Below are positions 1 through 9,732 of a stretch of DNA of 64,000 bases, in pieces; the first letter of the stretch is position 1; every line of letters starts with the position of its first letter. A program made the position numbers and the translations under genes. The DNA lies in NCBI RefSeq assembly GCF_902506555.1, contig NZ_LR732707.1, positions 1 through 64,000 on the forward strand, read 5' to 3'. This DNA comes from Sphingorhabdus sp. 109 (GTDB lineage Bacteria; Pseudomonadota; Alphaproteobacteria; Sphingomonadales; Sphingomonadaceae). Below the pieces are notes generated by a model. That model was not told where the DNA came from and made no database searches. It was given only the letters and a program-made list of their open reading frames with translations.

Positions 1-352
1 GTCCACGCCGATTGTCGAACGGGCGGGGCCGGGCGGGATGGGGCGCTATTTGCATCGCCGGGCCATCACCGGAACGGTGCCGGATCGGGTGGCGTGGAAA
101 CGTTCGAAATATATGGGAGAACGCCAGGCTCCCCATATTCACGATACCAGCGATATTGTCGAGAATATGAAGCGGGTCGATGCCGATCTGCATCCGATGC
201 TGGCGGATATGATCGATCACGAGAAATGGCGGACAAAGATCGAGCGGATCGAGTCAGGCGGTTGTAATGAAATGGAAGGCATCCAGGTCAGGCGGCAGAC
301 AAACTCCCTGAAATGGCTAAACATCTGGCTGCACGGTCTATCGGTTGCCTAG
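1..352 (+). CDS. Asparagine synthetase-like protein, C-terminal fragment (probable lasso-peptide cyclase)
   Basis: The frame is open from base 2, so this is the 3' end of a gene that starts outside the window; about 116 residues are visible. The run RRAITGTVPDRVAWKRSKY resembles the C-terminal part of the AsnB synthetase domain, where a basic stretch follows the G-x-(L/V)-P-x-x-(V/I) motif. The tail, with NSLKWLNIWLHG, resembles the last helix of asparagine-synthetase homologues that close the macrolactam in lasso peptides. That assignment leans on the neighbours: an ATP-grasp, a sulfotransferase and an HprK-like kinase lie just downstream. The catalytic ATP-binding part is missing from the window, so an ordinary AsnB paralogue cannot be excluded. 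Its stop overlaps the next start, which suggests translational coupling. Confidence 0.6.
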   Translation, partial: STPIVERAGPGGMGRYLHRRAITGTVPDRVAWKRSKYMGERQAPHIHDTSDIVENMKRVDADLHPMLADMIDHEKWRTKIERIESGGCNEMEGIQVRRQTNSLKWLNIWLHGLSVA

Positions 353-1580
353 CGGATGGGCAAAACTGTGCGGCGTGCTTCGCCGGGAACTGTGGCGGCG
401 CAATATACCGCACGGGATGATCAGCTGGCGCTATCTGTTTGCAAGCAGCCCGCAATTGGCAGCGCACAGGGAAATATTCTGGACGGCATTGCCGGGTCTG
501 CCAAAACCACTCTATCTGATTCTGGAAATAATATTGTGGCTGAAATGGGCCACTTTGTGCGGCTGGTTGGCGCTGTTCCGGGTGCTGCGCCGATATGGTG
601 GCCTGGTTCGGGACGAACGCGGTATTCCGGTATACCGTCAGTTTTTCCGGCTCGTCCGTCTCAGCATCGGAGCCTGCATGCCGCCCGCCGATGTTTATCG
701 CTTCGGGCTTGTCGAACACCCCGGAGGCTTGTGGAATTATGTCAGCGATCGCCATATCGCCGCTTTTCACCGGTGGCGGAACAGTCGCCAGCCGATATCG
801 TCGCACGAATATTCGCGGCTGGGAAACAAGGCTGTCACGACGGGCATCCTGCTGTCACGCGGGATACCGATGGCGCCGATCCTGGCGACCGCTTCGAGCA
901 CCGCAAGCTTGGATTTTCTCGATGCCTTGAATACGCATCGCCACCTGTTCTGCAAAAGCAGGTCGGGCAATCGCGGTCTCGGGGCTTTTGAATGTTGGCA
1001 AACCGAGCAGACGATTGAAGGCCGGATGTTCGAGGGAGAGGCGCTGCCGGACCAGCAATCGGTAATAGCGGCGTGGGAATCCTTGCTGGAACGCGATCAT
1101 GCTCTGGTGCAGCCGGCGCTGCAAAATCATCCGCAGCTTGCCCCGCTGGTGCCGGACGGGCGTGCAATCACCGTCCGCTGCATCACCTTTCGAGACGGAC
1201 GGGATATCGCGATTTTGTGCGCGTCACTGGAAATCCCGGCCGAGCGCCGGCCGTCGGATCGCCCCGATACCTATGTCATCTTGCCCGTCGACGCCGACAG
1301 CGGACTGGTGCAGCCGCTGGCTGGAAATTTACCGTTGCCGGAGCCAGTGCGGCAGAGTCAGCGGGATATGCTGAAAGCTATCGGTGGCCCGCGGCCGCTG
1401 CCTGATTGGCAAGCTTTGATTGGCCACAGTCTGTCGGCCCATGGCGCTTTTCCCGAGTTCTGGGCGATCGCGTGGGACTGGGTGCTGACCCCTGACGGGC
1501 CAATATTGCTCGAGGGGAATACTGGCTTCGGCGGCAGTCTGCCGCAATCATTGACCGGCGGGTTTCTGGCGCAGCTCTAG
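345..1580 (+). CDS. Sugar-transfer-associated ATP-grasp protein
   Basis: A protein of up to 411 aa resembling the ATPgrasp_ST family (PF14397): a lysine-bearing KSRSGNRGLGAFE segment in the middle, a hydrophobic beta-rich core, and a C-terminal LLEGNTGFGGS motif typical of the metal-binding end of this group. Such proteins are presumed to use ATP to join a carboxylate to an amine or similar acceptor, usually in surface-polymer or peptide-tailoring loci; the substrate here is unknown. The TTG at 345 overlaps the upstream stop by 8 bases, consistent with coupling. An in-frame ATG at 417 is an alternative start that would remove 24 residues. It converges on the sulfotransferase, separated by about 40 bases. 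Confidence 0.6.
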   Translation: MPSGWAKLCGVLRRELWRRNIPHGMISWRYLFASSPQLAAHREIFWTALPGLPKPLYLILEIILWLKWATLCGWLALFRVLRRYGGLVRDERGIPVYRQFFRLVRLSIGACMPPADVYRFGLVEHPGGLWNYVSDRHIAAFHRWRNSRQPISSHEYSRLGNKAVTTGILLSRGIPMAPILATASSTASLDFLDALNTHRHLFCKSRSGNRGLGAFECWQTEQTIEGRMFEGEALPDQQSVIAAWESLLERDHALVQPALQNHPQLAPLVPDGRAITVRCITFRDGRDIAILCASLEIPAERRPSDRPDTYVILPVDADSGLVQPLAGNLPLPEPVRQSQRDMLKAIGGPRPLPDWQALIGHSLSAHGAFPEFWAIAWDWVLTPDGPILLEGNTGFGGSLPQSLTGGFLAQL

Positions 1581-1619
1581 GCGGATGGATCGCCGGACCG
1601 CGCGACCCTATGCCCGGAG

Positions 1620-2474
1620 TTATTGCGGGACACCGCTCTGATCAAGATAGTTGAACCGCCGCATCACCGGTCCGTGGTCGGCGATAATCCTGGCGATCTG
1701 TTCCTCGTTCAGTTCGTTGCGCCAGCCGCCGGCCTTGCCTTGCCTGAAGAAGGAAGGAGTATTGGCCGGCTTTTCCTTGAACCCGTCTGTTTTCTCCTGT
1801 TCCTGCAAGCGATCGAAACGGCTGAAATGAAGAGCTTTTTCGACCCGCGGGCGGTCATGCGGCAATTCCAGAAAGCGTGCTGCCCGGGTGAAGGTGGCCA
1901 GGCTGTCGCCGAGCATGTCTTCATAGCGCAGAATCTCCAGATTGAGCCCGGGGGCGTCGACCCAGCTGAGCACATGGTCGGACCAGCTGAGCAATTTCTG
2001 CCGGACCTGATTGTTCAGCTTTCTTTCCGATTTGACAAAGCTCATGTCCGGCGAAGCCATCCGTTCGATCGCCTTGTCGACGCTGCACTGTAAATGATTG
2101 GCAAAGGACGAGGCCAGATCAAGCGGATTGCGGACAAAATAGACCGCGCCGCGGGTCGCCTTGCTGCTGACCAAAGGCTCTCCCGAGGGCAGGAACGTAT
2201 AGGCATCGTGGATCTTGTGATATTCCAGATCGGGTGACTGCAGGCTCCATTCATATACAGCAGGCCGCAAGGCATCGATATCGTCGTGCCGCAGGTCGGC
2301 CGTATCAAAGCCGAGAACTTCGTCCAGCCAGCTGCGGCCGCTGGCAATCGACCCGGTATGCAGTTCGTTGATGTCGACCGGCGCATCGCCATCTTGTTGC
2401 AGGTTCTGCAGAAACGCACGGAACCATGTGTTGCCGGATTTGGGATAGGAGGACAGCCAGTATATCGCGCCCAC
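1620..2474 (-). CDS. Sulfotransferase (PAPS-dependent)
   Basis: A 284-aa cytosolic sulfotransferase-fold protein. The PAPS 5'-phosphosulfate loop is PKSGNTW at residues 11-17. The conserved Lys-x-His step is KIH near residues 87-89, and the 3'-phosphate loop is the VRNPLDLASSF segment (Arg115, Ser122-123). It should move a sulfate group from PAPS to a hydroxyl or amine acceptor. Only 2 bases separate it from the upstream kinase gene on the same strand, so the two are surely co-transcribed. Together with the adjacent asparagine-synthetase homologue this suggests modification of a ribosomal peptide, but the acceptor is inferred from context only. Confidence 0.85.
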   Translation of the reverse strand: MGAIYWLSSYPKSGNTWFRAFLQNLQQDGDAPVDINELHTGSIASGRSWLDEVLGFDTADLRHDDIDALRPAVYEWSLQSPDLEYHKIHDAYTFLPSGEPLVSSKATRGAVYFVRNPLDLASSFANHLQCSVDKAIERMASPDMSFVKSERKLNNQVRQKLLSWSDHVLSWVDAPGLNLEILRYEDMLGDSLATFTRAARFLELPHDRPRVEKALHFSRFDRLQEQEKTDGFKEKPANTPSFFRQGKAGGWRNELNEEQIARIIADHGPVMRRFNYLDQSGVPQ

Positions 2475-2476
2475 GT

Positions 2477-3379
2477 TCAGACGCTTTCGGACAGGTCAGC
2501 CAGAATATGATCGACCAGCTGATCGATTTCAAAACCCTGGCGCGGGCGCAAGATCCGGGTAATCGCCGTTTGCCCGGCGAGTTTCCCGCAAAGCTTAAGA
2601 TGATCCGACCGCAAATCCATGCTGTCGAGAAATTTCTGGCGGTACGTGTTTGCGTGCAGCGCCGGGAATTTTTGCAAGCCCTTAATGGGGGTGGAGGAAA
2701 ACCCCTTTTCGTCATCGCTGCGCAAAATATAGATATGCTTTACGGGCAGCGGCTTGGGCACAAATTTTTCGGTAATCGGTAGATTGAATTTTTCCATATC
2801 CGGACGGATCCGGCTGAGGGACGTCGTGTCGATTTCCAGCTTGTCGGCCGCATCCTGCCACAGCTTGATCCGGGGAAAGCCGGGGATGGCATGACAGTCA
2901 TTGCCGATTGGAACCACATCATCGGCAAGCAGGTTATAGCCCCGCTGCATGAATGCGGCAGCGAGCGTAGATTTTCCCGCGCCCGAATGGCCGACACAGA
3001 TGATGCAGCCGTCGCCAATCTGTACGGCATTGCCGTGCAGAACCAGATAGCCCCGCTGGAATAGAAGCGCGCCCAGCGCCGAGCCGAGCATGAATACCCG
3101 AACGCTGTCCTCATCAATCCCCGGTGCCGGATCGTAAAGAATGGTATTACCATTGCTGACCAGAAAACGGGCCACATCCGGAATGTGCAATTGCAGGGCA
3201 GTGGGGGAAACCCACAAGAAGGGACCGACCTGTTCGGCGCCGTCCAGTCCATCCGGATCGACTGCGCCTTGCGCGATGCGGACATCAATCGCTGTCGGCC
3301 GATCGGGCAAGGCGACCATTTCGGATAAGGGCATTTCGCTATCGATCGCGAGATTGTAGCAATTGTAGAAATAGTTCAT
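2477..3379 (-). CDS. HprK-like serine kinase (possible RiPP-tailoring kinase)
   Basis: A 300-aa protein related to the C-terminal kinase domain of HPr kinase/phosphorylase. It has a P-loop GHSGAGKST at residues 130-138, an upstream LHGNAV motif (114-119) and a downstream LLADDVVPI segment (about 152-160), all characteristic of HprK homologues. True HprK regulates PTS transport, but standalone homologues with this architecture occur in lasso-peptide clusters of Sphingomonadales and Bacillales, where they phosphorylate the C-terminal residue of the peptide. Its pairing with the sulfotransferase supports a tailoring role over PTS regulation. It is the first gene of this leftward unit; its promoter must lie in 3380-3750. 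Confidence 0.75.
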   Translation of the reverse strand: MNYFYNCYNLAIDSEMPLSEMVALPDRPTAIDVRIAQGAVDPDGLDGAEQVGPFLWVSPTALQLHIPDVARFLVSNGNTILYDPAPGIDEDSVRVFMLGSALGALLFQRGYLVLHGNAVQIGDGCIICVGHSGAGKSTLAAAFMQRGYNLLADDVVPIGNDCHAIPGFPRIKLWQDAADKLEIDTTSLSRIRPDMEKFNLPITEKFVPKPLPVKHIYILRSDDEKGFSSTPIKGLQKFPALHANTYRQKFLDSMDLRSDHLKLCGKLAGQTAITRILRPRQGFEIDQLVDHILADLSESV

Positions 3380-3659: not shown

Positions 3660-3713
3660 ATTAATGAGAATCACTTGCAATAGCAATAGGAAGCTGTAAT
3701 TGGCCTTTTGTCG

Positions 3714-3730
3714 ATGCGAATGATTCGCAT
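3714..3730. promoter_or_regulatory. Fur-type operator upstream of exbB
   Basis: ATGCGAATGATTCGCAT is a perfect 17-base inverted repeat around a single central base. Its inner part has the 7-1-7 geometry of Fur boxes (TGCGAAT-G-ATTCGCA). It sits just upstream of the exbB start and heads an iron-uptake gene block, which supports iron-dependent repression. The regulator identity is inferred. Confidence 0.65.
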
Positions 3731-3766
3731 GAGACATAACAGCTGGCGAAAGTGGTCAAGAGACTT

Positions 3767-8822: not shown

Positions 8823-9409
8823 AAAATCATGTGATCAAGGGCCTGTTTTGGCTGTTGCTGTCGTTTCCCGCGATTCTGATGGTCCGCTCGTTTTTGCAGG
8901 ACGATGTGCTGGCGATGGACATGCTGCACCCCAGCGGCGAAACGGCGGTGCGACTGATGATCCTGGCCATGTTGCCGGGGCCTTTGTCAGAATTTTTCGG
9001 TCTCAACCGCTTTTTCAAAGGCTGGCTGAAGATCCGGCGCAACCTCGGCGTGGCTGCCTTTGGCTATGCCATGCTCCATCTGATATTCTACATATTCGAC
9101 ATGAACAGCGTTGTTGCGATGCTGGAAGAATTCACGATTCCGGGTATCTGGATGGGTTGGCTGTCGTTGCTGCTGATGCTCCTGCCGGCGCTGATCAGTT
9201 TCGATTTTGCGATGCGCCGGTTGGGGCGGAGCTGGAAAAATATCCAGCGGCTGGTCTATCCTGCGCTGATTATCGGCCTGGTTCACTGGATTCTGCTCGA
9301 CTGGGCGTGGCAGCCAGCAATGGTTCATCTCGCACCGCTCATGATAGTCTGGATTTTACGCTATATTGGCCGGAGACGCCGACACCGCACGCAACGGAGC
9401 ATGACATGA
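8819..9409 (+). CDS. Ferric-reductase-like transmembrane protein (MsrQ-like)
   Basis: A 196-aa integral membrane protein with about six hydrophobic helices, of the ferric-reductase-like domain family (PF01794) that includes the heme b protein MsrQ. Candidate axial histidines are His87 in the GYAMLHLIFY helix and His156 in the GLVHWILL helix, and the RRNLG motif precedes the first. No MsrP partner is encoded nearby; instead it lies between piuC and a periplasmic PepSY protein in an iron-uptake block. Transmembrane electron transfer for iron reduction is therefore a reasonable inference, not a demonstrated role. Confidence 0.75.
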   Translation: MKNHVIKGLFWLLLSFPAILMVRSFLQDDVLAMDMLHPSGETAVRLMILAMLPGPLSEFFGLNRFFKGWLKIRRNLGVAAFGYAMLHLIFYIFDMNSVVAMLEEFTIPGIWMGWLSLLLMLLPALISFDFAMRRLGRSWKNIQRLVYPALIIGLVHWILLDWAWQPAMVHLAPLMIVWILRYIGRRRRHRTQRSMT

Positions 9410-9732
9410 AAAAAATTTCTCGCAAATATACCGCCGCAGCAGCAGTGATTGCCACCATGATGCTGGCGCAACCGGCCTATGCGGATGGCGATATCAAATG
9501 CGATTCCGGCCCGACCAAGGACTGGAAGTCGATCAAGAAGCTGAAGAAAAAAGCCTGGATGGAAGGTTGGGAATTGCTCAAGACGCAGGTCGAGGGTGAC
9601 TGCTATGAAGTCTATGCCCGGACCGATAGCGGACAGGCCATCGAAGCTTTTTTCCATCCGGTAACGCTCAAGAAGCTGGTCGTGTTCCGGCGCGGCACCG
9701 AAATCTATCGCGCGCCGGGTTTCAAGGGCTAG
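9406..9732 (+). CDS. Secreted PepSY-domain protein
   Basis: A 108-aa protein whose ATG at 9406 overlaps the preceding stop by 4 bases. Residues 1-26 form a clear signal peptide (Lys-rich start, Ala-rich core, AYA cleavage site). The rest fits a single PepSY-like domain: basic KKLKKKAWMEGW helix, then strands ending in EAFFHPVTLKKLVVFR. PepSY proteins often accompany ferric-reductase-like membrane proteins. Its position here suggests a periplasmic partner of the upstream gene. The name rests on domain resemblance only. Confidence 0.7.
   Translation: MKKISRKYTAAAAVIATMMLAQPAYADGDIKCDSGPTKDWKSIKKLKKKAWMEGWELLKTQVEGDCYEVYARTDSGQAIEAFFHPVTLKKLVVFRRGTEIYRAPGFKG

Follow-up and report, generated by a model that had tools for sequence, protein, structure and literature searches.

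At the left edge of a 64,000-nucleotide stretch of the Sphingorhabdus sp. 109 genome (the window, contig NZ_LR732707.1), genes for an HprK-like kinase (K) and a PAPS sulfotransferase (ST) lie side by side, next to an ATP-grasp gene and the end of an asparagine-synthetase-like gene, raising the question of what these enzymes would modify. A first-pass annotation had read this edge as part of a lasso peptide locus, in which two anionic modifications would be placed on one peptide with an extra ATP-grasp step, and had placed the precursor, the B1/B2 protease and the rest of the cyclase to the left. We find that the locus is lasso-type but has no recognisable precursor nearby, and that lasso-like precursor genes occur elsewhere on the chromosome. 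We therefore infer that one set of enzymes probably matures a family of dispersed precursors in trans.

Gene content of the locus and its missing left side

To test if the four genes are as described, we searched the translated frames against Pfam and NCBIfam models (Table 1). The observation holds for all four, with K and ST separated by two bases. First, the asparagine-synthase C-terminus matches only weakly when taken alone (Pfam Asn_synthase E=0.018, below its cut-off; best NCBIfam match lasso cyclase, E=0.0059), but is 67% and 73% identical to the cyclase C-termini in the contiguous clusters of two relatives from the genus, genomes G208 and G089, respectively. Second, the following gene matches ATPgrasp_ST (E=2.4e-14), with an ATP-grasp ligase fold that is Ddl/RimK/LysX-like and with K204, Q256-P257, R278, D378, E390 and N392 invariant in an alignment of nine rows. 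Third, ST matches Sulfotransfer_1 (E=4.9e-22) and carries YPKSGNTW, R115/S123 and FFRxG, the 5'-phosphosulfate and 3'-phosphate binding motifs, which are kept in an alignment of seven rows. Fourth, K matches Hpr_kinase_C just above the cut-off (E=2.6e-8, 34 bits versus 33.3), whereas the NCBIfam HprK models match far below their cut-offs; it has the His, P-loop Lys and Asp-Asp residues (LHGNAV, GHSGAGKST, LADDV) of lasso-precursor kinases (PMC9266682, PMC10368454). The gene order is conserved in G089 and G208.

Table 1. Positions of the features of the locus, in the window or on contig C2 of the same genome (G000); L006 denotes the C2 locus that holds the left side
Feature	Position	Strand	Remark
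Scaffold-end overlap	1..102	.	repeats C2:3460319-3460420 (98%), showing the true left neighbour
Lasso-type cyclase C, C-terminal part	2..352	+
ATP-grasp ligase (ATPgrasp_ST, PF14397)	345..1580	+	overlaps the cyclase gene by 8 bp
PAPS-type sulfotransferase ST	1620..2474	-
HprK-like kinase K, lasso-precursor type	2477..3379	-
Cyclase C, first 545 residues	about C2:3458784-3460420 (L006:3785-5421)
B1 (RRE, PqqD-like)	L006:3326-3610
B2 leader peptidase	L006:2818-3291

The left edge of the window is a scaffold artefact, as its first 102 bp repeat a stretch of C2 that ends at a single N. This overlap and the contiguous orthologous cluster of G089 (locus L042) reveal the missing left side: the rest of a lasso-type cyclase, B1 (NF033536, 83.8 bits, cut-off 80) and B2 (NF033537, 74 bits, cut-off 33). 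The best NCBIfam family for the cyclase part in L006 is lasso cyclase (E=1.2e-66), at 225.7 bits against a cut-off of 525, a score that refers to the scaffold-truncated part and not to the full-length orthologues of G089 and G208.

These genes also bear on the possibility of an exopolysaccharide or surface amidation locus, in which a glutamine-dependent asparagine synthetase, the ATP-grasp and the sulfotransferase would act on sugars. ATPgrasp_ST is named after sugar-transfer loci and asparagine-synthase-like genes also occur in exopolysaccharide loci. However, an ordinary asparagine synthetase with exopolysaccharide genes and no B proteins, set beforehand as the outcome that would overturn the lasso reading, was not what we found to the left. 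B1 and B2 match lasso-specific models above their cut-offs, and 63 of the 68 ST relatives with a K-ST pair (next section) have at least one of B1, B2 and C nearby. Moreover, the cyclase has SGGIDS and starts with MFAGLL, also in the G089 orthologue, and thus lacks the catalytic Cys2 of glutaminases. We consider this alternative very unlikely and rejected a plain asparagine synthetase or exopolysaccharide locus.

A recurrent kinase-sulfotransferase pair

We next asked if the K-ST arrangement recurs. In 68 of the 80 closest ST relatives, across phyla, K lies directly before ST, and 63 of these 68 have at least one of B1, B2 and C nearby, indicating a recurrent lasso tailoring pair. All lasso-associated ST genes among the 80 that could be checked have K directly upstream (63 of 63, one further locus being cut off by its contig end). 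Genes related to the ATP-grasp occur in 7 of the 80 loci. The first-pass annotation's proposal of K and ST as a tailoring pair is therefore backed by a pattern across phyla, while dual phosphorylation and sulfation of one peptide is plausible but unproven.

No recognisable precursor beside the enzymes

To search for a local precursor, we scanned small ORFs on both strands with strict and relaxed motifs in the window, in the 40 kb to its left, in two small contigs (two other small contigs, which read as N, are not included) and around the G089 orthologue. No precursor with the expected motif was recognised in the window, to its left or near the G089 orthologue, and the matches in G000 looked like chance outside a second K-ST-B1-C locus of this genome (L043), which has a local precursor. 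Comparison of four stretches of the cluster with G089 gave no precursor either: by eye, the B1-C and K-ExbB spaces show no conserved ORF, and the space between B2 and a neighbouring MFS gene shows none with a lasso motif. A small ORF between B1 and C looked similar in both species, but the DNA alignment revealed no sign of a conserved coding stretch.

An ordinary lasso cluster whose single local precursor is too diverged or too badly sequenced to be recognised, with the dispersed genes being unrelated or vestigial, could also explain this absence. Lasso precursors are short and variable, motif scans can miss them, and our profile searches could not have found a precursor of a quite different type. 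In addition to the intergenic comparisons, the conservation of the dispersed genes described below argues against this possibility, which we regard as unlikely.

Dispersed precursor-like genes occur in the genomes that carry the cluster

Profile searches identified lasso-like precursor genes elsewhere on the chromosome: 3 in G000, 10 in G089 and 4 in G208. They have [YW].KP leaders, and all 17 have Lys2, Glu at 8 or 9 and a C-terminal Ser, although these residues are partly selected for by the profile and motif searches. Thr at position -2, expected by the first-pass annotation, is present in only 10 of 17 (V in 2, A in 3, S in 2). Many of the genes have a plausible ribosome site, as read by eye. 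In four pairs at shared sites the last 18 leader residues agree at 13-17 positions, and the cores at 8-11 of 16-19 aligned positions. By contrast, the upstream regions share no motif: no 10-mer (one mismatch allowed) was present in 6 or more of 20 regions, while five shuffles reached at most 4-5.

A further leader-bearing gene has an invariant predicted core without an acidic residue for a ring, and also ends in Ser in three species. From YEKP onwards it shows purifying selection (7-9 synonymous against 1-2 non-synonymous codon changes), but not in its first 15 codons (2-3 against 7-8).

We then determined the distribution of the precursor family and the cluster. Of 32 genus genomes the precursor profile matches 5 at E<=0.01, and of the 24 good ones it matches 3 (G000, G089 and G208), the same 3 that carry the K and B2 of the cluster. 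As the profile was built from G000 and G089 genes, G208 is the independent hit: of the other 22 good genomes it is the only one with a match and the only one with the cluster. On the other hand, the three species may be one clade, such that the co-occurrence may reflect a single event. Among further genomes, G212 (80% complete) keeps only a B1 fragment and B2 beside ExbB and has no precursor hit, G213 (67%) has one atypical precursor-like hit without a Ser end, and G217 (89%) has a relic without a match to the cluster; as these genomes are incomplete, missing genes there are weak evidence. The G213 hit and the G217 relic were not counted in the family, nor were weak profile hits in G002, G023 and G065, which read as other lasso-like precursors where the sequence was seen.

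We also considered that the dispersed precursors belong to L043 or other machinery and that the window cluster has another substrate. L043 has its own K, ST, B1, C and local precursor, and G089 has further K/B1/C loci (L049 and L050), two of its ten precursor genes flanking the K and B1 of L049, so that such loci could serve some precursors. However, G208 has the dispersed family but only one K (at E<=1e-15), one B1, one B2 and one high-scoring C, all in the cluster, and no second machinery is visible there. Similarly, B2 above the NF033537 cut-off is single in G000 and G089, and lies in the cluster. This alternative therefore seems unlikely.

A model for maturation in trans

On the basis of these findings we favour, with a probability of roughly 0.7, a lasso-type maturation hub (B1, B2, C, ATP-grasp, ST and K) without a recognisable precursor of its own. 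Gene content and order, the kept motifs and the presence of dispersed precursor-like genes in the same well-assembled genus genomes as the hub rest on sequence, whereas every biochemical step, including lasso ring formation and the expression of the precursors, is inferred. In this view, B1 would bind the [YW].KPxL leader of precursors expressed from several chromosomal sites, K would phosphorylate the C-terminal Ser, ST would add sulfate, B2 would remove the leader, and C would join residue 1 to Glu8 or Glu9 to make the lasso ring; the fold of the ATP-grasp suggests carboxylate-amine ligation. A conserved exporter was not found: the MFS gene beside B2 in G000 and G089 was not found in the 20 kb around the G208 hub, and we rejected it as part of the conserved hub. 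The interpretation of the first-pass annotation is thus supported in part: the lasso-type locus and its left-hand genes were correctly predicted, but the candidate precursors lie elsewhere.

Sulfation of Tyr as the general role of ST is rejected by cores that lack Tyr, namely 8 of the 17 dispersed cores and 11 of 30 Ser-ending motif hits at K-ST loci (some of the 30 being chance hits). As the C-terminal Ser is the only hydroxyl position shared by the 17 cores, and considering the K-ST pairing at all lasso-associated ST genes that could be checked, a speculative and rather improbable extension is that the hub matures a prochlorosin-like library and also a constant non-lasso decapeptide (ALLTSLFRAS), with K and ST acting in turn on the same C-terminal Ser to yield a phosphosulfate, a peptide ending that is, to our knowledge, not known.

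Lasso mining normally looks for a precursor beside the enzymes. If one hub serves unlinked precursors, such searches miss products, and clusters dismissed as precursor-less may be active. The dispersed family would be a natural substrate library for one B1/B2/C set, useful for defining substrate rules, and the K-ST pair, found in many phyla, points to a phosphorylated and sulfated class of lasso peptides. The invariant precursor suggests that lasso leaders may also route linear peptides, perhaps signals.

Relation to known systems

Searches of a literature library with few subscription papers listed no paper on dispersed lasso precursors or on a characterised lasso sulfotransferase, and the word sulfotransferase does not occur in the main text of a 2026 review (PMC13352647). 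The closest systems are the kinase-tailored lasso peptides (paeninodin; SyanK of Sphingobium yanoikuyae; BsfK of Bradymonas), which share the HprK-like kinase, the split B1/B2 and cyclase C, and whose kinases phosphorylate the linear precursor, at the C-terminal Ser in the paeninodin and SyanK systems and, for SyanK, several times on one residue; Ile/Val at -2 is reported in Sphingomonadales (PMC8498205, PMC9266682, PMC10368454; Zhu 2016, two papers, and Zyubko 2019 are cited through these reviews). Here, by contrast, ST and ATP-grasp are adjacent, the cluster has no recognisable precursor and many precursors are dispersed; BsfK targets Ser3. In pseudomycoidin a second tailoring enzyme, a nucleotidyltransferase, works with the lasso kinase, a place taken here by a sulfotransferase; a putative sulfotransferase gene is mentioned, without function, in some Firmicutes lasso clusters (PMC8498205). 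Prochlorosins likewise pair one enzyme set, a lanthipeptide synthetase, with many precursors that have conserved leaders and variable cores and are in part unlinked, whereas the enzymes here are lasso-type with a kinase and a sulfotransferase. In citrulassin with its distantly encoded PAD (PMC9266682, PMC12971885) lasso biosynthesis is also split between chromosomal sites, but there a tailoring enzyme is remote and here the precursors are. Finally, Teg14 and Teg12 are the best solved sequence matches of the ST profile, with StaL also among the ten best, but these sulfotransferases act on non-ribosomal glycopeptide antibiotics.

Gene content of the locus and its left flank

The first four genes of the window encode the end of an asparagine-synthase-like protein, an ATPgrasp_ST protein, a PAPS-type sulfotransferase (ST) and an HprK-like kinase (K), arranged as two converging pairs with K and ST two bases apart, and the observation made in the first-pass annotation is confirmed. 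To the right follow ORFs that we read as ExbB, ExbD and TonB, a TonB receptor whose best NCBIfam match is Fiu, and an Fe(II) dioxygenase. A near-palindrome, ATGCGAATGATTCGCAT, precedes the ExbB gene and looks like a Fur site, and this stretch is conserved in the same-genus genome G089.

Coordinates of the features described (window positions unless a contig or locus is named; C2, scaffold of this genome, G000)
Feature	Coordinates	Strand	Remark
Asparagine-synthase-like protein, end	2-352	+	
ATPgrasp_ST protein	345-1580	+	
ST	1620-2474	-	
K	2477-3379	-	
Near-palindrome before ExbB	about 3710-3735		
Scaffold-end overlap	1-102		98% match to C2:3460319-3460420
Putative scaffold join	window 1 and C2:3460421		single N
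Dispersed precursor-like gene	C2:2829519	-	
Dispersed precursor-like gene	C2:3080941	+	
Dispersed precursor-like gene	C2:3362057	+	
Second K-ST-B1-precursor-C locus	L043:6437-15866		C2, near 1.99 Mb
Degenerate B2-like (3 stops) and B1-like (1 stop) matches	C2:151698-151904 and C2:2178113-2178238	- and -	perhaps traces of lost lasso loci
Invariant leader-bearing gene	L220:9289-9417	-	
Invariant leader-bearing gene	L219:9953-10081	+	
Invariant leader-bearing gene	L211, around 9325-9453	+	

To determine what lies to the left, we compared the start of scaffold C2, which is the start of the window, with the rest of the scaffold. The matching stretch ends at a single N, which we take for a scaffold join, and C2 seems wrongly ordered, its start belonging after position 3460420. 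Upstream of the N lies the rest of the asparagine-synthase-like protein, with B1 and B2 on the other strand. B1 passes the NCBIfam model NF033536 and B2 passes NF033537, whereas the long protein has the lasso cyclase (C) as its best NCBIfam match but, as a fragment, scores below the cut-off. In G089 these genes are contiguous in one contig (K-ST, ATP-grasp and C, B1-B2-MFS), and likewise in a further genome of the genus, G208, but without a detectable MFS gene. The prediction of B1 and B2 to the left is thus confirmed, albeit by overlap and synteny rather than by a closed assembly.

K and ST form a recurrent pair

We then asked if K and ST are linked beyond this genus. A scan with the ST alignment, of which the best 80 of 565 relatives were kept, revealed K on the same strand directly upstream of ST in 67 of 80 loci, and in one more (L086) where the ORF start had hidden it, giving 68 of 80, with a 4-base overlap as the commonest spacing. 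Of these 68, 63 have at least one of B1, B2 and C within the DNA examined (up to 10 kb on each side). Of the 12 others only L106 has a C-like hit, and its contig starts about 430 bases before ST, so that K could not be seen. As the query set was lasso-associated and only the best 80 relatives were kept, these shares describe this branch of the family and not all sulfotransferases. Conversely, the ST relatives at L099, L107, L109, L111, L117-L119, L123, L125 and L131, sometimes in tandem, have no K or lasso genes detected nearby and represent another branch of the sulfotransferase family. As labelled in the sequence records, the 80 loci include Proteobacteria, Bacteroidales, Chloroflexi, Acidobacteria, Verrucomicrobia and a cyanobacterium. 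HprK-like matches alone are common, occurring in 137 of 199 genomes of the bacterial family at E<=0.001.

To look for precursors at these loci, we applied a fixed motif (leader [YWF]xxPx[LIVMFY], Thr-2, acid at 7-9), which gave 45 hits in 35 of the 80 loci, 31 of them ending in Ser. By contrast, five first-order shuffles gave 11-25 hits, 0-2 of them ending in Ser, although hits inside K, ST, B1, B2, C or ATP-grasp genes were left out of the observed count only and some of the 45 are surely chance. Of the 30 Ser-ending hits at loci with K upstream, 19 contain Tyr and 11 do not.

Precursor-like genes are dispersed over the chromosome

The first-pass annotation had also placed the precursor to the left of the cluster, but strict and relaxed motif scans recognised none in the window, in the 40 kb to its left or around the G089 orthologue. 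By contrast, the second K-ST-B1-C locus of this genome (L043) does have a precursor, with Thr or Ile at -2 depending on where the core starts. It lies next to tryptophan-halogenase-like, DUF6445, Asp/Arg-hydroxylase and GT8 genes and carries a short, divergent B2-like ORF.

We then ran a profile of 19 precursors (A6) over the genome and found, besides the L043 gene, three more genes with no lasso gene in the 20 kb around them. A narrower profile (A7, these three and two of G089) matched 11 places in G089 and none in G153, a genome that lacks the cluster. With a third profile (A8, 13 of these genes), G089 has 10, of which two flank the K and B1 of locus L049 and the other eight have no lasso gene within the 20 kb examined, while G208 has four, two strong and two weaker, again with no lasso gene around. 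All 17 lasso-like cores have Lys2, Glu at 8 or 9 and a C-terminal Ser, and 12 end in Pro-Ser, but the searches favour such features and the uniformity is partly by construction. L049 and L050 of G089 contain further K and B1 genes with local precursors (in L050 also C and an A-ST-K run), but no B2 was found there, and they may borrow the B2 of the hub, as we refer to the window cluster and its orthologues.

Hub and precursor-like genes occur in the same three good genomes

To test if hub and precursors co-occur, we searched 32 genomes of the genus, 24 of them good. At E<=0.01 the A8 profile matches five: G000, G089, G208 and, weakly, G213 and G217, which are incomplete. Hub K is found in G000, G089 and G208, and hub B2 in those and in G212. 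Among the 24 good genomes the same three have both, which by simple counting is 1 in 2024, but the profile was built from G000 and G089, so only G208 is independent (1 in 22), and relatedness is not corrected for. G208 shows a single K at E<=1e-15, a single B1, a single B2 match and a single high-scoring C (991.7 bits; a 165-bit relative has counterparts in the other three genomes, hub-less G153 included). G212 keeps B2 and a B1 fragment beside ExbB, but no C, ATP-grasp, ST or K on that contig, and no precursor hit. In the family draw of 199 genomes, which did not include G208, only G000 and G089 have strong hits.

Variable and invariant cores

Some precursor-like genes sit at the same place in different species: one gene in G000, three in G089 and two in G208 share one site, and two others (A3 of G000 and f of G089) share another. 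In four such pairs 13-17 of the last 18 leader residues agree, but only 8-11 of 16-19 aligned core residues. One leader-bearing gene behaves the other way, in that its end, SEIHEKTDALLTSLFRAS, with the core ALLTSLFRAS, is identical in G000, G089 and G208 at one syntenic site, with mostly synonymous changes from YEKP on, while its first 15 codons vary freely. After the predicted Thr-2 boundary it has no Asp or Glu, so it could not form a lasso ring, yet it still ends in Ser. G217 has a relic with changed residues and no ATG, GTG or TTG start that we could see in its frame.

A lasso hub that may act in trans

Taken together, the interpretation offered in the first-pass annotation is only partly supported, and the stronger finding lies outside the region it had singled out: a lasso hub without a recognised precursor of its own, and a family of scattered precursors that comes with it. 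The genes and their retained motifs are read from the sequence, whereas action in trans on the dispersed genes is inferred from co-occurrence and from the single machinery of G208. We hold this reading at a probability of roughly 0.7, slightly lowered because two of the three co-occurring genomes supplied the profile, and for the same reason leave slightly more room for the alternative of a local precursor, which we nonetheless consider unlikely.

Our view of how the locus most likely works draws on published work (PMC9266682; PMC10368454). The C-terminal Ser is the only hydroxyl position common to the 17 cores, and every checkable lasso-associated ST among the 80 has K beside it, so ST may act on the product of K or on the same residue, although other Ser/Thr positions remain possible. 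The motifs of ST are kept, and Teg14 and Teg12 are its best solved matches. Genes related to the ATP-grasp gene were scored in 7 of the 80 ST loci, and the predicted model of the protein (pLDDT 86.5) resembles Ddl, RimK and LysX/ArgX ligases, at a low TM-score of 0.3-0.4 by query length.
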